64,000 bases of DNA, from assembly GCF_000963945.1 (NCBI RefSeq), contig NZ_BAMW01000007.1, forward strand, positions 62,001 through 126,000, in the 5' to 3' direction. A model generated the notes under the pieces. It was not told where the DNA came from. It searched no databases and saw nothing but the letters and a program-made list of their open reading frames with translations. Positions 23,220 through 33,572 of the stretch are shown here, piece after piece. Position 1 is the stretch's first letter, and each line of letters starts with the position of its first letter. Source of the DNA: Acetobacter indonesiensis (GTDB lineage Bacteria; Pseudomonadota; Alphaproteobacteria; Acetobacterales; Acetobacteraceae). Made by a program: the position numbers and the translations under genes.

Positions 23220-24485
23220 ATGACTGATCCCATCAATCTGACCCGCCTTCCCTCCGGCCTGACCGTTGTGACTGAACGCATGGACCGTGTGGAAACCGTT
23301 TCTTTCGGTGCTTATGTCTCTACCGGTACACGGGATGAAACGGCTGAAGAAAACGGTGTTTCACACTTTCTGGAACATATGGCGTTCAAAGGCACCACCA
23401 GCCGGTCAGCCCTTCAGATTGCCGAGGAAATTGAAAATGTGGGTGGGCATATCAATGCCTATACTGCACGGGAACAGACCGCGTTTTACGTCAAACTGCT
23501 GAAAGACAATATGGACCTGGGCGTGGATATCATTGGTGATATCCTGACCCATTCCACGTTTGATCCGGTTGAAATTGAACGTGAACGTGGGGTCATTCTT
23601 CAGGAAATTGGTCAGGCTAACGACACACCGGATGACGTGGTGTTTGACCATTTTCAGGCCACAGCCTTCCCCAATCAGCCTATGGGCCGCCCGACATTGG
23701 GCACGGAAGACCTGATTCAGAACATGAGCCGCGATACGCTCATGTCCTACATGCGCACCCATTACACAGCAGACAACATGGTGATTGCCGCCGCTGGCAA
23801 CCTCCACCATGAAGACGTGGTGGAACGGGTGCAGCGTCATTTTGCCGACCTGCCGACAACGGCACAAATTCCAACCCCGCCGTCTCTCTATGGTGGTGGT
23901 GAGTTCCGTCAGGAAAAAGACCTCGACCAGGCGCATGTGGTGCTGGGGTTTCCGTCTGTCGGTTATAATGACCCCGATTATTACGCGACCCTTCTTCTTT
24001 CCATGGTTCTGGGCGGTGGCATGTCATCCCGTCTGTTTCAGGAAATTCGGGAAAAGCGCGGACTGGTTTATTCTGTTTACTCCTTCAACGCACCGTTCAT
24101 TGATGGTGGCCTGTTTGGCATCTATGCTGGCACAGGCGAGAAACAATGTGCCGAACTGGTCCCGGTCACGCTTGAAGAACTGCACAAGATTCAGCAGTCC
24201 GTCGGGCAGGACGAAATGCTGCGTGCGCGCGCCCAGCTTAAGGCCTCCCTGCTGATGTCTTTAGAAAGCACTGGCAGCCGATGCGAACAGATTGCCCGCC
24301 AGCTTCAGCTTTTTGGGCGTATTATTCCGGTTTCCGAAACAGTTGCGCATGTTGAAGCTGTTACCCCGGCAGATATCTGCCGCGTGGCCAGCCGTATCTT
24401 CACCCAACAGCCGACGCTGGCAGCCCTTGGGCCCGTTAGCCACGTGCTGCCCCTGAACACCATTGCGGAGAAACTTGCAGCATGA
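23220..24485 (+). CDS. M16 zinc peptidase, mitochondrial-processing-peptidase-like
   Basis: 421 residues, the length of single-unit M16B peptidases. The inverted zinc motif HxxEH is present as HFLEH (about residues 48-52), with the distant zinc glutamate in the ERERGVILQEI helix. The C-terminal half carries the glycine-rich loop region (GGGMSSRLFQEIREKRGLVYSV). Relatives include the beta subunit of the mitochondrial processing peptidase. Likely a cytoplasmic or membrane-linked oligopeptidase. The stop codon overlaps the start of pmbA by 4 bp (ATGA), so the two are translationally coupled. Confidence 0.93.
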   Translation: MTDPINLTRLPSGLTVVTERMDRVETVSFGAYVSTGTRDETAEENGVSHFLEHMAFKGTTSRSALQIAEEIENVGGHINAYTAREQTAFYVKLLKDNMDLGVDIIGDILTHSTFDPVEIERERGVILQEIGQANDTPDDVVFDHFQATAFPNQPMGRPTLGTEDLIQNMSRDTLMSYMRTHYTADNMVIAAAGNLHHEDVVERVQRHFADLPTTAQIPTPPSLYGGGEFRQEKDLDQAHVVLGFPSVGYNDPDYYATLLLSMVLGGGMSSRLFQEIREKRGLVYSVYSFNAPFIDGGLFGIYAGTGEKQCAELVPVTLEELHKIQQSVGQDEMLRARAQLKASLLMSLESTGSRCEQIARQLQLFGRIIPVSETVAHVEAVTPADICRVASRIFTQQPTLAALGPVSHVLPLNTIAEKLAA

Positions 24486-25822
24486 GTGAACAAACCCTCG
24501 AAAAGATCTCTGATCTTGTCCGCCGTGCGCGTGCCGCCGGGGCCGATGCTGCCGATGCAGTTTTTGTCTCCAGCACAGCCATAGGTGCGGGGGTTCGTAA
24601 CGGTGTTACGGAAGAACTCGAACGCTCTGAAACCACAGATCTGGGTCTGCGTGTATTTCTGGGCCAGAAATCAGCCATCGTCTCCACAACCACCATCGAC
24701 CCTAACCGGTTTGATGGATTGGTTGAGCAAGCGCTGGCAATGGCCAAAGTGCTGCCGGATGACCGATTTGCCGGGCTGGCTCCTCATGCTCTTACGGGCA
24801 CCTTTACCAGTAATGATCTGGATCTGACCGACACGGCCGAGCCCGATGCGAATGCGCTGCTAAACCGTGCGCGTGAGGGTGAAGACGCAGCCTTGGCTAT
24901 CAAGGGTGTGACCAATAGTGCGGGCAGCAGTGCCTCCTGGGGGCGCACTGAAATCGCGCTGGTAACCTCGCAGAACTTTGCTGGCACCTATGCCCGCACC
25001 CGCCACTCGACCTCGGTCTGTGTTCTGGCGGGCAAGGGTGAAACCATGCAGCGGGATTATGATTACCATGGCACCGTGCATCTTTCTGATCTGGAAAATG
25101 CAGGCCTGATTGGCACGCGTGCGGGTAAAAATGCCGTGGCTCGGATCAACCCCATCCGTCCACGCACGGGGCGCTATCCGGTCGTGTTCCATCCGCGCGT
25201 TGCCAATAGCTTTCTTGGTCACTTTATTGGGGCAATCAACGGCGCGTCGATTGCCCGTGGCACATCGTTTCTGAAAGAAAAGCTCGGACAGAAAATCTTT
25301 GCGGATAGCGTCACCATCACGGATGACCCTACCCGCGCACGCGGCCTGAAGTCCCGGCCGTTTGACGGGGAAGCCAATCGCACCGCTCCCCTGGAACTGG
25401 TCAGCAATGGTGTACTGCAAAGCTGGATTCTGGATACCCGGAGCGCTCGCCATCTGGGGCTGGAAAGCAACGGTCGTGCTGCCCGCGGAACCTCTGGCCC
25501 GCCGTCTCCGTCGGCAACCAATCTGTCTTTCGCACCGGGCAGCCTGAGCCCGGAAGAGATGATGGCAGACATAAAGGAAGGCCTGTTCATTACGGAAATG
25601 ATGGGCTCCTCCATTAACGGGTTGACGGGGGATTACAGCCGAGGCGCTTCTGGCTTCATGATCCGCGACGGAAAGATTGCCGAAGCCGCTGCTGAATTTA
25701 CTTTGGCCGGGAACCTGCTGGAAATTTTCGCGTCCATCACTTTAGCGAACGATTTACAGTTCCGTTTTGGCACTGATGCCCCCACATTAAGAACAGACGC
25801 CTTGAGCGTCGCCGGTGCCTAA
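24482..25822 (+). CDS. pmbA: TldD/PmbA (TldE) family metalloprotease regulator subunit
   Basis: A 446-residue protein of the TldE/PmbA side of the TldD-TldE heterodimer, which degrades unfolded peptides and matures microcins. Identified from the N-terminus (VRRARAAGADAADAVFV, GVRNGVTEELERSETTDLGLRVFLG), the GARGTSGPPSPSATNL-like central region and the C-terminal GEYSRGASGF-like motif (here GDYSRGASGFMIRDGK). The zinc HExxxH of TldD is not visible, as expected for TldE. It is coupled to the upstream M16 gene by ATGA; a tldD partner is not in the window. Confidence 0.92.
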   Translation: MSEQTLEKISDLVRRARAAGADAADAVFVSSTAIGAGVRNGVTEELERSETTDLGLRVFLGQKSAIVSTTTIDPNRFDGLVEQALAMAKVLPDDRFAGLAPHALTGTFTSNDLDLTDTAEPDANALLNRAREGEDAALAIKGVTNSAGSSASWGRTEIALVTSQNFAGTYARTRHSTSVCVLAGKGETMQRDYDYHGTVHLSDLENAGLIGTRAGKNAVARINPIRPRTGRYPVVFHPRVANSFLGHFIGAINGASIARGTSFLKEKLGQKIFADSVTITDDPTRARGLKSRPFDGEANRTAPLELVSNGVLQSWILDTRSARHLGLESNGRAARGTSGPPSPSATNLSFAPGSLSPEEMMADIKEGLFITEMMGSSINGLTGDYSRGASGFMIRDGKIAEAAAEFTLAGNLLEIFASITLANDLQFRFGTDAPTLRTDALSVAGA

Positions 25823-25847
25823 CCAAAGTCTGGAGACACAACACCTC

Positions 25848-26810
25848 GTGAAAAAGCGCACTCTCTCTTCCGCTCTCGCCGCTCTGATGACTGTGAGCCT
25901 GCTGAGTGGCCCATTGGCCTATCAGGCCGATGCGCGCCCCGGACAAGGTGGGTCCATGGGTAGCCGCGGCAGCCGGACATGGAGCGCCCCGCCCCCGACA
26001 CGCACCACCCCCTATGGTGCAAGCCCGATGGACCGTTCCATAACACCCCGTACACCGGGACAGAGCGGCTATGGCACGCAAACGCCATATCAGCAGGGGT
26101 TTGGCGCACAGGCCATGCGCCCCCGCCACCCGTTCCTGACAGGTTTTGCGGGCGGTGTGCTCGGGGCCGGTCTGTTTGGGCTGCTGAGTGGTCATGGTTT
26201 CTTTGGTGGCGTTCACAGCTTTTTCGGCCTGATTGGTTTGATGCTTCAGGTTGCTCTGGTCGTCTGGATTGTTATGTGGCTGGTGCGCCGGTTCTCGGGC
26301 AACCGAGGAAATACGACTGGCGGCAATGGTTTCAGCCTTAATCAGGCAGCGACTGGCGGCGCGTCACCGCCCGGTGTACCTGTCGCTAATGCCCAGTCTA
26401 ATCTGCCTATTACAAGCAGCGATTATCAGGCCTTTCAGCAGACTTTGCTTGATATCCAGAATGCCTGGAACCAGCAGAACATTCCGGCCATGCAGCAGAT
26501 GGCGACGCCAGAGATGGTGTCTTACTTCAACCAGCAACTAGCCACCCTTGCCGCCCAAGGCGCGCGCAATGTGGTGTCAGACGTTCACTTTATTCAGGGT
26601 GATCTGGCCGAAGCATGGCAGGAAGGTGGTATGGATTACGCAACTGTCGCCATGCGCTACAGTCTGATTGATCTAACGACCAACGCGATGGGTCAGGTTA
26701 TTGAAGGCAGTTCTACTGACCCTGTAACAATTACTGAGCTGTGGACCTTTACGCGCCCGTCTCGTGGTGGTCGTTGGTTGTTGTCGGGTATTCAGCAAAC
26801 TCGCGGATAA
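25848..26810 (+). CDS. Tim44-domain membrane protein
   Basis: About 320 residues: a signal or anchor (SALAALMTVSLLSGPLAYQADA), a Gly/Ser/Arg/Pro-rich low-complexity linker, a hydrophobic helix (about 125-150, LIGLMLQVALVVWIVMWLV), and a C-terminal Tim44/MRPL45-like domain (FQQTLLDIQNAWNQQNIPAMQQMATPEMVSYF to the TELWTFTRPSRGGRWLLSGIQQ end). Bacterial Tim44-domain proteins are proposed membrane-associated transport or assembly factors. The GTG at 25848 is preferred since it has a GGAG upstream and a clean signal sequence; a GTG at 25815 would overlap pmbA. It is the last gene before an intrinsic terminator. Confidence 0.8.
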   Translation: MKKRTLSSALAALMTVSLLSGPLAYQADARPGQGGSMGSRGSRTWSAPPPTRTTPYGASPMDRSITPRTPGQSGYGTQTPYQQGFGAQAMRPRHPFLTGFAGGVLGAGLFGLLSGHGFFGGVHSFFGLIGLMLQVALVVWIVMWLVRRFSGNRGNTTGGNGFSLNQAATGGASPPGVPVANAQSNLPITSSDYQAFQQTLLDIQNAWNQQNIPAMQQMATPEMVSYFNQQLATLAAQGARNVVSDVHFIQGDLAEAWQEGGMDYATVAMRYSLIDLTTNAMGQVIEGSSTDPVTITELWTFTRPSRGGRWLLSGIQQTRG

Positions 26811-26833
26811 CTTTCAGGCATTCGACGTGACAC

Positions 26834-26869
26834 ATCCCGGCCATGCTTCCAACGTGGCCGGGATTTTTT
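26834..26869 (+). terminator. Intrinsic terminator after the Tim44-domain gene
   Basis: A perfect 10-bp stem (26834-26843 with 26855-26864) with an 11-nt loop, followed by T6. Confidence 0.85.
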
Positions 26870-26924
26870 GTATCTAAGGCGCTAAGCTGTGTTGGCCTTT
26901 AGCGTTCCATAGGATGTTAGAAAC

Positions 26925-27104
26925 ATGCTTTTTTTGGAAATTATTACGTTCGTCTTGGCTGTCTCTGCCTCGGCCTTCAGCATTTTTCTCCATTTCTGGA
27001 ACAAGCGTAAAATAGCAGATCTGGAAAATGACCTGACTAAGCTGCGGGAAAAAGGTGTGCCTGTGCAAATGGATACGCTGCTGGAAGAAGTCCGTAAAAA
27101 ATAA
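26925..27104 (+). CDS. Small single-pass membrane protein (59 residues)
   Basis: A short gene: ATG at 26925, TAA at 27102-27104. The protein begins MLFLEIITFVLAVSASAF, one hydrophobic helix of about 20 residues, then a basic stop-transfer (NKRK) and an acidic/basic heptad-like tail (ADLENDLTKLREKG ... DTLLEEVRKK) that looks like a short coiled coil. AGGA at 26911-26914 gives a Shine-Dalgarno with about 10-base spacing. It lies about 55 bp past a terminator, so it probably has its own promoter. Not recognised as a family; the membrane topology suggests a cytoplasmic coiled-coil tail. Confidence 0.65.
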   Translation: MLFLEIITFVLAVSASAFSIFLHFWNKRKIADLENDLTKLREKGVPVQMDTLLEEVRKK

Positions 27105-27304
27105 CGGGCAGATGGACATCTCTAAAATCGTGTTTGCGATCTTCTTTTGTTAATCTTGACGCCTCTGTTCTACTAAAAACCTCGTTTTTGAACAAAGGTC
27201 CCGCCGCTGCGTCGCTTTATTTTTCGTATGTTTTGCTACAGCCCGTGAACCACTTGCGTCTAAAAAGTGTCTTATTTTTTACTTTGAATAGGCGTCTTAA
27301 ATAA
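27105..27304. other. Intergenic region without a recognised gene
   Basis: AT-rich sequence after the 59-residue gene and before the ctaB-operon terminator. A 13-codon ORF (MDISKIVFAIFFC) resembles the start of PMP3-type proteins but stops at once; I see no credible gene or RNA here. Confidence 0.5.
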
Positions 27305-27346
27305 TAAAAAAGCCAATGCCCCATTCTTGGAAGCATTGGCTTTTTG
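27305..27346 (-). terminator. Terminator of the ctaB operon
   Basis: A stem of agccaatgc / gcattggct (27311-27319 with 27333-27341), flanked by A- and T-runs, lies about 60 bp past the last gene of the ctaB operon; it could also stop transcription from the left. Confidence 0.8.
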
Positions 27347-27405
27347 CCTCTTTGTTAAGACACAAGCGCACTCGCTCCCGCCTAAACTCAATGGGCCTAA
27401 CCAGT

Positions 27406-27543
27406 CTATAAATGCGTAAAGGTCAGCCCGTACATTACGCCTGCAATCAGAACCATAAAGCCAATCATGGCTTTTAGACGGTCTTTCTGGCGGCGCTGTT
27501 TCTCAACAAGTTCCGGTTGGGTCAGGCTATTCTGTGTATCCAT
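27406..27543 (-). CDS. Small membrane protein coupled to ctaB (CoxF-like position)
   Basis: A 45-residue protein, MDTQNSLTQPELVEKQ..., with a basic segment (KQRRQKDRLK) followed by one hydrophobic helix (AMIGFMVLIAGVMYGLTF). Its ATG overlaps the ctaB TAA by one base (TAATG), so it is translationally coupled to heme O synthase. In many alphaproteobacteria a short R/K-rich single-pass protein follows ctaB in cytochrome oxidase operons, and the layout matches; sequence similarity to that family is weak and the assignment is an inference. A role in oxidase assembly or heme handover is plausible. Confidence 0.65.
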   Translation of the reverse strand: MDTQNSLTQPELVEKQRRQKDRLKAMIGFMVLIAGVMYGLTFTHL

Positions 27544-28502
27544 TAACCAATCCACCCTTGCAGCATATGGTCTGCCAGCAACCCGCAGAACAGAAGAAAC
27601 AGGTATGCCAGCGAGAAACGGAAGGAAATGCGGGCGGCTTTATCGCCTGCAAGACTGACGCCATTTTCATCCTGCGGCTCACGCAGCACACGCACAGCAC
27701 ACGCGACAAACCCCAGACCAAGCACAAGAGCTGTCGCTGTATAGAGCCAGCCGGAGAGATGCATGACTGACGGAATAAGAGAGATTGCCAGCAACACCAG
27801 CGTGTAAACAAAAATGTTCCAACGTGTGTGACGTGCCCCTTTGACCACGGGCAACATAGGAATTCCGGCGCGCCCATAATCCTTGCACGCATAGAGTGAC
27901 AGGGACCAGAAGTGCGGTGGTGTCCAGAAAAACACAATACCGAACATAACAACCGGTAATACTGTCATGTGACCTGTGGCGGCGGCCCATCCAATCATGG
28001 GTGGGAAAGCGCCCGCCGCACCGCCAATCACAATGTTCTGCGGTGTCGAACGCTTTAGCCACATGGTGTAGATAACAGCGTAGAAAAAAATCGAGAACGC
28101 CAGAATACCGGCGGCCAAAGCGTTTGTTGCCATCCACATCAGACAAACAGAAAAGCAGGACAGCCCGATACCATAAGCCAGCGCTTCCTGTTCAGGAATG
28201 CGCCCACCCGGAATAGGGCGTGTAATGGTGCGCTGCATAACCGCATCAATATCACGGTCGTACCACATATTGATGGCACCTGCCGCGCCTGATGCCAGAC
28301 AGATACACAGAATGGCGACAGCAGCTTCAAAAAGAGAAAGGTGCCCGGGGGCCATGATCATGCCCGCAGCACCTGTAAACACGACCAGAGAAATAACCCG
28401 TGGTTTAAGAAGCTGAACCCAGTCTTTAGCTGTGGTGCCTACCCGGTCTGCTTTGAAGCGGACGCGGGCAGAAACAGCCGGTTGCGCCGTTGTTTCACTC
28501 AT
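27543..28502 (-). CDS. ctaB: Heme O synthase (protoheme IX farnesyltransferase)
   Basis: A 319-residue integral membrane UbiA-superfamily enzyme that adds a farnesyl group to heme b to make heme O, needed by bo3- and aa3-type oxidases. The prenyl-diphosphate/Mg motif is visible as NMWYDRDIDAVMQRT, followed by RPIPGGRI, and there are about nine hydrophobic helices. The start codon overlaps the upstream subunit-I-like gene by 4 bp (ATGA). No intact heme-copper oxidase subunit gene is in the window, so its heme O must serve an oxidase encoded elsewhere, or the neighbour. Confidence 0.96.
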   Translation of the reverse strand: MSETTAQPAVSARVRFKADRVGTTAKDWVQLLKPRVISLVVFTGAAGMIMAPGHLSLFEAAVAILCICLASGAAGAINMWYDRDIDAVMQRTITRPIPGGRIPEQEALAYGIGLSCFSVCLMWMATNALAAGILAFSIFFYAVIYTMWLKRSTPQNIVIGGAAGAFPPMIGWAAATGHMTVLPVVMFGIVFFWTPPHFWSLSLYACKDYGRAGIPMLPVVKGARHTRWNIFVYTLVLLAISLIPSVMHLSGWLYTATALVLGLGFVACAVRVLREPQDENGVSLAGDKAARISFRFSLAYLFLLFCGLLADHMLQGWIG

Positions 28503-29746
28503 GACCGCACCATGCTGTCTGTTGTTTCAAACGCATCTTTTTCGCAAGAATTAACTTCAACCAGAGGGCGGTTCTGGGAAAAGCTTAAGCCCATAGTCAG
28601 CAGGAAGCACAATACGGACGCCCCAAGCAGGCCGCCGCTCCACATCCGGCACACGGCAGGCAAAGACGGAATAGCAAGCACCGTCCCCGCGACCATGCAG
28701 ACAAACTGCGCTGTGGCCAGCGACGTCGGATACCAACGGCCACAGCCCTCACCCCGCCAGAGATACAGGCCACAGAATACGGCATAAAGCGTTCCGACCT
28801 GTAACGCGGAATGCAGACCATCGCCCTGCATGAACTGGCTGACCCAGCCGGAAGACACTACGGCCAGAAAACCAAGCCCCCAGAGCATAGGCGTTCTGAC
28901 AGTCAGATTGGCGCGCCATGTGCCTGCCATCCACAGCGCGGCCAGAAGAACAGATGCCAACGTCGCAGCACTGAGAATAAGAGACTGTGCGGAGAAAAAA
29001 GCTGTCTGCGCTGCAACGCCTAACAAACCATGAGCAAAAACGCTTTTTACCCAAAGCGTTGTCCCTGCCGCAGCAGTCAGACTCATAATCGCGGCAACCG
29101 GAAAAGTGGGGAACCGTGCGACTTTGGCACCTGTTTCAAAAACCACGCCAAAGCCAGCCAGCAGCGTCACCAGAGTAATCGGCTCGACAAACCCTGTCAG
29201 CATTTCAGGGGAGAATGCTCCGCCAGTCTTAATCTGATGGCTAACAACAGCACCCAACACAGGGACCGTTACCAGCACAACAGCAGAAGCCAGCATTTCA
29301 CCCCAGACCAAGGGAGAAAACGGCGCGCGTGCCTCACCATCTGCACGGCTGTCAAAAATGGTCGCCAGAATGACCATGACTGCCATTAAGGTGCCGCAAC
29401 ACCAGACCAGCGTGGCCGCATTTTGCCAAGGAGAGGCCACCATCAGCACACCAGAGGCTGAAACACAGGCCAAGGAAAGTTTGTTAAGACCCGGAAGAAC
29501 CGTGCCATCCCGCTTCAACGCGCGCGGTAACCAGAGTGTGCCAAATCCACACACCAAAGCAGGCACGACAACAAAAAGCAGCATCAGGGCGCTATGCACG
29601 CGGTCAATACCGGCCCAGAATCCAGCATGCGGCAAAAGACCAAGTTGCTGTAACGCTGAACCGCCACCGCCTAGCAATCCAGCCAAAGCCGCAACCAGCA
29701 GGTAACCTGCCCCTACACCATCAACCGATGCAGTACGCCGTACCAT
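28499..29746 (-). CDS. Degenerate heme-copper-oxidase subunit I-like membrane protein
   Basis: A 415-residue polytopic protein with about 11-12 hydrophobic helices, clearly homologous to oxidase subunit I: HSALMLLFVVVPALVCGFG (compare HGxxMxFFxxxPALxGGFG), VRTPMLWGLGFL (compare TPMLWALGF) and YAVFCGLYLW...GRWYP (compare FxIFxGxYxW...GRxYP). His51 and His312 align with the two low-spin heme a ligands. The high-spin/CuB centre is lost: HPEVY is replaced by a segment with Glu188 and no Tyr, the HH pair is H239-G240, and the heme a3 histidine is Gly310. The start at 29746 follows AAGGA seven bases upstream. It is coupled to ctaB (ATGA). Function unknown; assembly or heme-binding roles are inferred. 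Confidence 0.75.
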   Translation of the reverse strand: MVRRTASVDGVGAGYLLVAALAGLLGGGGSALQQLGLLPHAGFWAGIDRVHSALMLLFVVVPALVCGFGTLWLPRALKRDGTVLPGLNKLSLACVSASGVLMVASPWQNAATLVWCCGTLMAVMVILATIFDSRADGEARAPFSPLVWGEMLASAVVLVTVPVLGAVVSHQIKTGGAFSPEMLTGFVEPITLVTLLAGFGVVFETGAKVARFPTFPVAAIMSLTAAAGTTLWVKSVFAHGLLGVAAQTAFFSAQSLILSAATLASVLLAALWMAGTWRANLTVRTPMLWGLGFLAVVSSGWVSQFMQGDGLHSALQVGTLYAVFCGLYLWRGEGCGRWYPTSLATAQFVCMVAGTVLAIPSLPAVCRMWSGGLLGASVLCFLLTMGLSFSQNRPLVEVNSCEKDAFETTDSMVRS

Positions 29747-29949
29747 GCTGTTTTCCTTATACTGGTCTTGTTCCGCACAAGCAGATGCCATGTTTCGCAC
29801 CCCACGCCCTGACAGATGTGTGTTGGGTTACGACACGCGCACCCTGAAAGCCTCTTCTATAGCGGCTTTGCCTTAAGTAAACGACCCATTTAGCTGCGCA
29901 TGCTTATCGCCCCTGCCCTGTGCAGAAAGGCGATCAGCAGCAAAAAATC

Positions 29950-30675
29950 TTAGAGATTATCAAGCGTGACGAGCGTGAAAAGCCCCGCTGGCGGCACCGG
30001 CTGCTGACGCGCCCGCACCAGATCTTCCGGAGGCAGAAGAGATTCCATCGCAAAATCAGGATGCCAACCCAGCGACCGTGAGGCACGTGCCATGCCACGC
30101 TCAACAGCACCACGCACACCGCCTGGGGCCAGAAAGTGATTCACGAACAGAATGTGACCGCCCGGCTTTACCACGCGTTTGAGTTCACGCAGCAGTTTCC
30201 GCGGGTGCGGCACAACGGACGCCACAAACATGGCCACAGCAATATCAAAGGAGTTGTCCTCGAACGAGGTCTCTTCCGCGTCCATCTCCAGCAGGGCTTT
30301 AACATTTGTCAGGTGCTCTCTCTGCACCCGTTCACGCGCACGGGCCAGCATATCACCAGACAAATCGATGCCCGTAATCTGCTTGTCCTTGCGATAATGT
30401 GGAAGGGCAAGGCCTGTTCCCACACCCACTTCAAGCACATCTGTGCCGGACAATGCGTTGACGGCTTCAACCGCACGACGGCGGCCGAACCCTGAAACGC
30501 CACCAAACACGGTGTCATACACACCTGCCCACCGGCGGTAAGCGACCTTTACGGCCTCGGCATCCAACGCTGAACGCGAAGGTGCCGGATCTTCACCCTG
30601 ACCGGGCGAGCATTTGTGGAGAACGTCACTCATAGGTTCTCTCTGCCCGCTGGCGGCAATTTCTTCAAGAGCCAC
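29950..30675 (-). CDS. pmtA: Phosphatidylethanolamine N-methyltransferase (PmtA-type)
   Basis: SAM-dependent methyltransferase (241 residues) that converts phosphatidylethanolamine to phosphatidylcholine, a lipid abundant in acetic acid bacteria. Motif I is DVLEVGVGTGLALPHY, motif II TGIDLSGDMLARARERV, and the middle AYRRWAGVYDTVFGGVSGFGRR is typical of the alphaproteobacterial Pmt group. The GTG at 30675 has GAGGAAG upstream; the ATG at 30633 (MSDVLHKCSPG) is an alternative start. It stands alone, divergent from a small membrane protein gene. Confidence 0.85.
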   Translation of the reverse strand: MALEEIAASGQREPMSDVLHKCSPGQGEDPAPSRSALDAEAVKVAYRRWAGVYDTVFGGVSGFGRRRAVEAVNALSGTDVLEVGVGTGLALPHYRKDKQITGIDLSGDMLARARERVQREHLTNVKALLEMDAEETSFEDNSFDIAVAMFVASVVPHPRKLLRELKRVVKPGGHILFVNHFLAPGGVRGAVERGMARASRSLGWHPDFAMESLLPPEDLVRARQQPVPPAGLFTLVTLDNL

Positions 30676-30786
30676 AACGCATCTTCCTCTTCTTTAAAAC
30701 CCAGTGTGCCTTAAAAGCGCCCTTGTGTCAGTGCTCATTGTTCTTTTACCTTCCGCACCATTCAATCACGTCAAAGATAAAGAGAC

Positions 30787-31005
30787 ATGCTGGAATTGCT
30801 TCTTGCCCTACTTAGCCTGATTATCTGGTCCTCTCTGATCATTTATTTTTTTCGCGACCCGATCTTCACGTGGCTGGATAACCGCTTCGGCAAGGACACC
30901 CCACCTCCTCCGTTGGACGAAGGGGAAGCCGAACAAATGGATCAGGCATTTTCCGACTCTTTCATGGGCAAACATTCCCCATCAGAGCAACGTAAAGACA
31001 CCTGA
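30787..31005 (+). CDS. Small single-pass membrane protein
   Basis: A 72-residue protein: an N-terminal hydrophobic helix (LELLLALLSLIIWSSLIIYFF), then FRDPIFTWLDNRFGKD, a proline run and an acidic tail. No family recognised. It may be a membrane-anchored accessory protein. The ATG follows an AAAGAG Shine-Dalgarno-like stretch. It ends 12 bp before the gshB stop on the other strand, so the two converge. Confidence 0.6.
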   Translation: MLELLLALLSLIIWSSLIIYFFRDPIFTWLDNRFGKDTPPPPLDEGEAEQMDQAFSDSFMGKHSPSEQRKDT

Positions 31006-31017
31006 TCCTTTGCCCGA

Positions 31018-32010
31018 TCAGGCTTTCAGCTTGTTTTCAATACAATCCCAGATTGCGGCCGCACCATTGACGCCGTCGAACCGTTCCAGTTCCTGCAAGC
31101 CCGTTGGGGATGTGACGTTGATTTCAGTCAAATAATCACCAATCACGTCTATCCCCACAAAAATAAGGCCATGCTCCTTTAAGAAAGGACCTATGGCTTC
31201 ACAGATTTCTTTATCCCGCTCAGTCAATGCGACTTTACGGGCCACGCCCCCAACATGCATGTTTGATCGATGGTCATCCCCGGTCGGGACACGATTGATC
31301 GCCCCCACAGGCACGCCATCAACCAGAATAATCCGCTTGTCACCCTTCTTCACGGCGGGCTCATAACGCTGAATCATCAAGGGTTCGCGTGAGCGTGCAA
31401 AATGCATTTCAAGCAGTGCATTCAGGTTCTGATCATCTTCCTTGATGCGGAAGATCCCGCTGCCGCCATTCCCAAACAAGGGTTTGACAATAATGTCTTT
31501 CCACTGCGTCCGGAATGCGCGGATCTGTTCAACATCCCACGTCACCAGCGTAGGGGGCATCAGATGCGGGAAATGCGTAACCAGCAGCTTTTCCGGTGAA
31601 TCGCGCACCCAGCGCGGGTCATTCACCACAAGCGCCTTGTTCGGGCCAACACCATGAACGTGGTCGAGCAGATGGGTCGCGGTAATATAGGCCATGTCAA
31701 ATGGGGGATCCTGACGCATCAGCACCACATCCATCTCCCCAAGCGAACGACGAGAAGCCTCGCCAAAGGTCGCGTGGTTACCTTTTTCACGCTGCACCGT
31801 GACGGGGCGCAGAGACGCACTGACCTGCGTGCTGACTTTACCACCGGGGGATGTTGTTCCCTCACCCAATGCCAGAGACGGCACCTCATAAACAAATAAT
31901 TTATGGCCGCGTGACTGCGCTTCCAGCATCAGGGCAAAAGTGGAATCGCCGTTAATATCAACATGCTCCAGAGGATCCATCTGGACAGCCACATTTAATG
32001 GAGACGACAT
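31018..32010 (-). CDS. gshB: Glutathione synthetase
   Basis: ATP-grasp ligase that joins gamma-glutamylcysteine and glycine. 330 residues, close to the E. coli length (316). The N-terminus [30 protein letters not shown] is family-typical; later motifs are [34 protein letters not shown] and the late [12 protein letters not shown] segment. The start at 32010 (MSSPLNVAV) is chosen because the upstream extension has no family similarity. The gene stands alone; gshA is not nearby. Confidence 0.95.
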
Positions 32011-32096
32011 ACGCACCCGCTTTCTCTTACTCGTGAACCTGTTTTGTGTAGCGTATCCCTGTTCTGCGCTTGTGTGCAAACCAGCGATTTGACCTT

Positions 32097-33572
32097 CTAA
32101 GAACGACGAGGCAGCAGAGCGCTGTCTGGCATATGCCCTGACAGGTCACACCGCAGTCGCACATGGAACACGGCATATGTCTCCGCCACCATGCCTCGGC
32201 GCACGCGCGCAATGTCGGGCTCCTGGGCTAGAACGTCGAAGAAAGCGGGGTCCGGGACGTCTCGGCGCCTGTGGCTTCTGATGAGATAGGCCTCGCCGCA
32301 TGTCGCATGAGCCAGAGCAAACAGCGCCCAGCGCGGCTCAACCGCAATTACTTGTCTCTGTGCTGGCATATAGAATGCCAGTTCTGCACCCAGACCATAT
32401 TCATCCACCACAACAGCGGACTCGGCTGGCACTCTGGCCGCAACCTGTTGCCCAAACTCCGACCACCCACCCATCTGCCGCAACGTCATATCTACATGCG
32501 GAGAAAGGCGTGCCGGTGACGCCACGGCCTGCACCATGATAACGGCCACCAGAGTCATGCCAAACAGACTGGCGGCTTTCCACCCTTTCCACGCAGGCAG
32601 AGAAGCTGCCACAGACAATGCTGGATAAATCACAACCGGCCAGTTTGCCTGAACGCGGGCACCAATCGCGTGCTGCAAAAACACGGTAAGCGGCAGCAGA
32701 ATCATACACAGAAGCAGGCGCGAAAACGCATCTTTCTGCCGCCACAACAGAACGCTTCCGGCCACAAAAAACACAAACACCCCGGGGGAGGCCAGCCCGA
32801 TTTGGCCGCCTAACAATTCCGTAAAATACGTGACCATTTTTGCCGGGTGCCAATCACCTGTACGGCCACCCTGTTTAAGGAAACTGGCCCAACCATGGGT
32901 TGCATTCCACCATACGACGGGGATTACACAAAGGGCGGCAATGCCCGCCGCAATCCACGGCCAGATGGTTTTCAGCCACGCACGCCCTGCCGGTGTGACC
33001 ACAAGCCAGAGCCCCAAACCTGCAACCGGCAGCAGGGCAGTATATTTGCTGTCAAACCCCAGCCCGGCACTAAATCCAATCGCCAGCCACCACACCCCTT
33101 TTCCTGTGCAACACAGTTGAGCTAGGGCCCAGAGCATCATCGCCATAAAAAAAAGAAGCGGTGTATCGGGTGTCATGAGAAGCGTGCCAACACCGAGGGC
33201 AACCGTGCCATTTAATAAAACAGCGGTCTTTAATCCGGCCTGCGTAGAGGCTGGCCGCCCTTGCGCCTGAAACCAGCCCCGAGCCGCCATGGCGAGAAGC
33301 ACGGTTCCACACGCAGCTGATATCGGCCCCATGAACCGAACACCACACGCGGTATCGCCCAACACGGCCATGCCGATGCGAATAAATACGGCCACCATGG
33401 GAGGGTGATCAAGATACCCAGCAGCCGGTGCTAAAGCCCATACGCGATAATAAGCTTCATCTGGTGTCAGGGGTAAGATCGCCCCCATGACAATCCGCGT
33501 AAGTGTCAGAAGCAGCAAAAATGCTCCACCAATCACCCACGAATGCTGACGAGCCTGCCTAAAGGGAGACAT
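32097..33572 (-). CDS. ArnT/PMT-type glycosyltransferase family 39 membrane enzyme
   Basis: A membrane glycosyltransferase of 491 residues with about ten or more TM helices. The N-terminal loop [31 protein letters not shown] carries the catalytic Asp-Glu pair of lipid-linked-sugar transferases such as ArnT and PMT. It uses a polyprenyl-phosphate sugar and modifies a lipid or protein at the periplasmic face. The start at 33572 ([12 protein letters not shown]) is 8 bp after the end of the upstream GT2 gene, with which it forms a unit: GT2 makes the polyprenyl sugar and this enzyme transfers it. The sugar acceptor is not known. Confidence 0.85.

Follow-up and report, generated by a model that had tools for sequence, protein, structure and literature searches.

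A close counterpart of the gene studied here has already been described: the 'deranged COX1-like protein' of Acetobacter, which is encoded next to CtaB, is said to lack all cofactor-binding residues and has been suggested to stabilise CtaB structurally (PMC10715153, which cites Matsutani et al. 2014). In A. pasteurianus, ctaD and ctaB carry the adjacent locus tags APT_01775 and APT_01774 (excerpt of PMC5158111), and aa3 oxidase is given as absent from acetic acid bacteria (excerpt of PMC4007555). With regard to partners of oxidase assembly, excerpts of PMC9145763 give an assembly order, place ctaM beside ctaB in S. aureus, and describe CtaM as a DUF420 protein that crosses the membrane in four or five segments, whereas Surf1 has two such segments and a large outer domain; for E. 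coli bo3, heme O synthase is stated to be the only specific assembly protein known. CtaM and Surf1 are like the protein considered below in its proposed role, as partners in heme or oxidase assembly, and these excerpted descriptions, not alignment, set them apart from it. Here we analysed a window of 64,000 nucleotides from A. indonesiensis, in which a degenerate oxidase gene overlaps ctaB.

A ctaD-like gene overlaps ctaB

The ctaD-like gene lies at 28499..29746, as the first-pass annotation of this DNA had it, and is on the minus strand, which that annotation did not give. It encodes a COX1-fold, 12-helix protein of 415 aa in which the binuclear centre is absent; the residues are counted from an ATG, and a possible alternative GTG start lies 18 codons upstream. 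Downstream on the minus strand, ctaB (27543..28502) encodes heme O synthase (protoheme IX farnesyltransferase; 319 aa), with a match to Pfam UbiA and a score of 334 bits against the NCBIfam heme o synthase cut-off of 246. The stop codon of the ctaD-like gene and the start codon of ctaB share the previously noticed ATGA (28499..28502, minus strand), through which translation of the two genes is likely to be coupled. A stretch of 732 bases (26811-27542) separates the end of ctaB from a Tim44-domain gene and holds no gene that could be recognised and no Rfam match; an 81-aa frame in this gap (26874-27119) has no Pfam match, and an Rfam search of positions 24000-33000 of the window returned nothing over the gathering score.

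The homology to subunit I that was initially proposed is borne out: the ctaD-like protein matches Pfam COX1 above the family cut-off (E 1.3e-13), and its best PDB sequence match is an aa3 COX1 (E 1.2e-14). Its predicted structure, modelled with high confidence, has 12 helices in the COX1 fold, and the best structure matches are aa3-type subunit I. Its score against NCBIfam CtaD, 55.5 bits, is far under the curated cut-off of 670.75. No Pfam match to NnrS, a family that had been named as a possible better fit, was found at E up to 10 in a search whose filters drop weak matches, and COX1 was the only match listed. Named proteins among the nearest database matches are from Acetobacter. Two full CyoB genes lie elsewhere in the A. 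indonesiensis genome; the ctaD-like gene is its third, degenerate PF00115 match.

Low-spin heme ligand positions are invariant and the oxygen-reducing centre is lost

To compare ligand positions, we aligned 114 distinct homologues, picked among the matches listed for full-length match and from genomes of the same family and genus, with seven Acetobacteraceae aa3 subunits. Left out of the counts were L003 and L019 (duplicates of L004 and L018), G009/L200 (contig edge), G415 and G327/L191 (broken frames) and G324. The distant-homologue profile search scored only about 8000 candidates, and wider relatives may exist. The 114 members have predicted lengths of 379-493 residues and no internal stop.

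As had been claimed, His51 (codon 29594..29596, minus strand, start of helix II) and His312 (28811..28813, minus strand, start of helix X) align with R. sphaeroides H102 and H421, the low-spin heme ligands. Far from varying freely, each position is His in 114/114 members, and the two are among only five invariant columns of 437 (H51, W148, P189, W232 and H312). The oxygen-reducing centre, in turn, is gone, also as proposed. The HPEVY segment is reduced to Glu188-Pro189-Ile190-x-Leu192 (29171..29185, minus strand), with Glu188 at the position of the CuB histidine, Leu192 at that of Tyr288, and Pro in 114/114; Gly310 (28817..28819, minus strand) stands at the position of His419, the heme a3 ligand. 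The double histidine of CuB, which the first-pass annotation had placed at H239-G240, instead aligns with Lys234-Ser235 (29042..29047, minus strand). Across the 114 members, His is present at H284 in none, at H333 in 44, at H334 in none and at H419 in one, and none has Tyr at Y288. In terms of family A subunit I, the fold and low-spin histidines are thus present, and the CuB His/Tyr set and the high-spin His are not.

We then considered members outside the alignment. The low-spin pair was present in all of 17 further complete members (7 + 10, some of which may be identical to one another), of which 10 (one genus, g32) have His at the second CuB position, H334, two (L187 and L188) have His at H333, and in no case is the centre complete. 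Individual CuB histidines have thus survived here and there, but not the full ligand set. The pair was likewise found in 39/39 database proteins, which share species with the 114-member set and include P0001, nearly identical to the window protein. Each of two incomplete members retains one of the histidines, the first in L200 (contig edge) and the second in L191 (broken frame).

Retention of the whole low-spin pocket, which we also considered, is only partial, as the positions of the Trp, the formyl-Arg and the propionate-Arg vary or no longer carry these residues. The loop with the propionate-binding R481/R482 is deleted in 112/114 members, and where an Arg lies close to the formyl group of heme a, 57 of the 114 have Gln and 13 have Arg; for these reasons, any heme site would be an altered one. 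Two tryptophans are family-specific: Trp115 (29402..29404, minus strand; 109/114), where the seven aa3 subunits have A, S or T, and Trp301 (28844..28846, minus strand; 78/114), at a Gly position that lines the heme a3 pocket. These residues may fill the vacated a3 cavity.

Overall, the protein shares with aa3 CtaD/COX1 its fold, 12 helices, place before ctaB and low-spin histidines, but differs in having no full CuB ligand set, no Tyr, no a3 ligand and no propionate Arg loop, and in its length (about 415 versus 540 residues). A separate degenerate COX1-like group of about 550 aa (P0044, P0045, P0047, P0048 and P0050) likewise consists of Pfam COX1 members with a lost centre; in P0045, P0047, P0048 and P0050, unlike in the ctaD-like family, the low-spin histidines are gone as well. 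P0044 has kept the low-spin and a3 histidines and lost the CuB ligands.

The ctaD-like gene is linked to ctaB and co-occurs with CyoB

In 114/114 loci, ctaB is the next gene on the same strand, which agrees with the expectation of orthologues beside ctaB carrying the same two histidines. The nearest ctaB start is at -4 in 97/114 (92 ATG, 5 GTG). For comparison, we used 80 named ctaB loci, at 60 of which a COX1-like frame lies next to ctaB or close to it; 2/60 show the -4 overlap, and 7/60 have no start codon in the range searched. One of the 60 frames is a family member (Komagataeibacter xylinus). The other 59 comprise 51 with all seven ligands and E286, one with all seven and E286 replaced by Ala, and seven that end at a contig or frame edge and keep the ligands within the covered part. 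Given 97/114 against 2/60, the tight overlap looks derived. Fusion to an upstream gene at L031 and L071 (open frames of 751 and 686 codons) was rejected, as the extra stretch resembles, by eye, an out-of-frame neighbouring methyltransferase. In genus g68, outside the clade that bears the family, a complete aa3 subunit I directly adjoins ctaB (L129, L130, L189 and L190); this arrangement is possibly a picture of the ancestral state, the GyrB placement of g68 being weakly supported.

Next we examined co-occurrence in 80 chosen genomes, 63 of which bear the family. In 63/63, CyoB was matched at 900 bits or above. CtaA was present in 37 of the 63 and absent from 26; because of these 26, a link to heme A was rejected and the link is to heme O/B. 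In six genomes (G425 and G210; G066, G070, G029 and G116), no family member, ctaB orthologue, CyoB or CtaA was found, and their closest CtaB-like matches are UbiA relatives, at best 28% identical. In a GyrB tree (29 of 30 genomes asked; G140, G031, G076, G002, G034, G050 and G077 absent), the six fall at two separate places within the family-bearing clade, which as a whole has a bootstrap of 99. Two of them, G425 and G210, are reduced genomes of 1.5 and 1.7 Mb from the same genus as the window. Of the remaining 11 genomes, three that lie outside this clade (G001, G007 and G053) have ctaB and CyoB and no ctaD-like protein; in G068 and G140, a real aa3 subunit adjoins ctaB, and in G031 and G077, ctaB is present and no family member was found. 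An extra CyoB-model match of 400-424 bits in G042, G123, G215, G060, G340, G073 and G189 (genera g42, g60 and g73) appears to be a second true oxidase at another site in those genomes.

The ctaD-like gene evolves rapidly under purifying selection

A quick maximum-likelihood tree of 88 rows, with bo3 as outgroup and long branches that leave inner nodes unsure, united the 73 family rows (72 different) in one group (SH-aLRT 100) adjoining nine aa3 subunits. The family tree has a length of 52 substitutions/site, and median pairwise identity within the family is 26%. Parsimony changes over 364 columns have a median of 23 per column, with none at H51, W148, W232 and H312; the lost-ligand columns 188, 192, 234, 235 and 310 have 31, 22, 16, 31 and 24 changes, respectively. 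Among heme contact residues, the low-spin set (18 aligned positions) has a median of 15.5 changes and the a3/CuB set (17) a median of 24, compared with 22 for 217 positions invariant in nine aa3 subunits. Codon models with the transition/transversion ratio at 1 gave omega values of 0.061-0.153 in seven clades of the ctaD-like gene and of 0.013-0.047 for ctaB at the same loci, and close-pair counts for the ctaD-like gene gave 0.046-0.230. The ctaD-like gene is thus under purifying selection. The two broken reading frames (G415:C146 and G327:C21) are in draft genomes that are 86% and 85% complete.

Discussion

We consider it very likely that the ctaD-like gene product is maintained as a membrane protein with one bis-His heme. 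Its role is a separate matter: the first-pass annotation had offered heme O handling, electron transfer or sensing, and sequence cannot choose among them, but joint loss with CtaB and CyoB and independence from CtaA favour the handling of heme O/B. The best-supported role, which we put at somewhat less than an even chance, is that the protein acts with CtaB in supplying heme O to bo3; this would follow from the gene overlap, the co-occurrence, the two co-losses and the independence from CtaA. Slightly more tentatively, we propose that an oxidase subunit has been recruited as a one-heme partner dedicated to heme O synthase, acting as a heme acceptor or carrier for a different oxidase, bo3. The protein has COX1 ancestry and would have originated as subunit I of an aa3 oxidase (CtaD) encoded in front of ctaB; its oxygen-reducing centre would have been lost, once according to the tree, on the branch leading to the acetic acid bacteria. 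The respiration of these bacteria uses the bo3 quinol oxidase. The former CtaD would have been kept as a single-heme membrane protein, in which His51 and His312 may hold a heme (B or O). In a putative complex with CtaB, this heme would be taken up or held at CtaB and then passed to apo-CyoB, so that a client of heme O synthase would have become its partner.

Several observations bear against a role in bo3 supply. E. coli produces bo3 with no protein of this kind, and the three genomes with ctaB and CyoB and no ctaD-like protein (G001, G007 and G053) count against it. The low-spin site of bo3 is occupied by heme b and its high-spin site by heme O; a hand-over from a low-spin-like site would therefore not be a simple copy of oxidase assembly. 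The co-loss is weakened because it amounts to two events in small genomes from which the whole heme O/bo3 system is gone, and any operon member would have gone too, whichever role it had.

The gene linkage, overlap and co-loss would also fit a purely structural partner that stabilises or positions CtaB in the membrane, any heme being a mere folding element. This reading has been suggested in print (PMC10715153), and the rapid sequence drift of the family suits a scaffold. However, it leaves unexplained that, with a median of 23 changes per column, two ligand histidines belong to the only four positions without any change, and the fold seems not to require them, as P0045, P0047, P0048 and P0050 are without them; we consider it unlikely. 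About as doubtful, and a little more so, is a stand-alone cytochrome, that is, a one-heme membrane protein for electron transfer or for redox or gas sensing that shares an operon with ctaB by chance. A low-spin electron-transfer or redox-sensing heme would require just such a kept bis-His pair, but ctaB is the only partner gene established, losses coincide with those of CtaB and CyoB, the propionate Arg pair is gone, and one heme on one membrane side would presumably be unable to carry electrons across. Finally, the gene might be a pseudogene in decay that has survived by chance or serves just as a leader through which translation is coupled to ctaB. Oxidase function is truly lost, an open frame could be favoured by the coupling to ctaB, and the two broken frames may reflect either error or decay. 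We reject this reading as very improbable, given the intact lengths of all 114 aligned members, the high-confidence 12-helix model, the low omega values and the absence of any change at the ligand histidines, which a mere leader would not preserve in particular.

As far as the description goes, the window gene is the same as that of the deranged COX1-like protein, with which it shares its clustering with ctaB (114/114), and the earlier view that no function had been described for such a protein does not hold, since that publication describes it and suggests a structural role (PMC10715153). Among the papers listed in our literature searches, we recognised none that reports the low-spin pair as kept. 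The Matsutani 2014 abstract reportedly has the function of ctaD lost through accumulated mutations, a wording that implies the pseudogene reading. Against the printed description that all metal-cofactor ligands are lacking, the low-spin pair is present in 114/114 members, and this invariant pair corrects the statement (PMC10715153).

An oxidase subunit appears to keep one heme site under strong selection after its catalysis has been lost. A conserved bis-His membrane protein encoded with ctaB throughout the acetic acid bacteria would make the transfer of heme O from CtaB to a quinol oxidase directly testable; if the proposed role is right, a bo3-type oxidase would have an assembly factor besides heme O synthase, and the heme-copper oxidase fold would have met a new fate. 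Overall, the pattern of conservation suggests that acetic acid bacteria probably keep a working one-heme membrane protein for heme handling, and not a dead gene.
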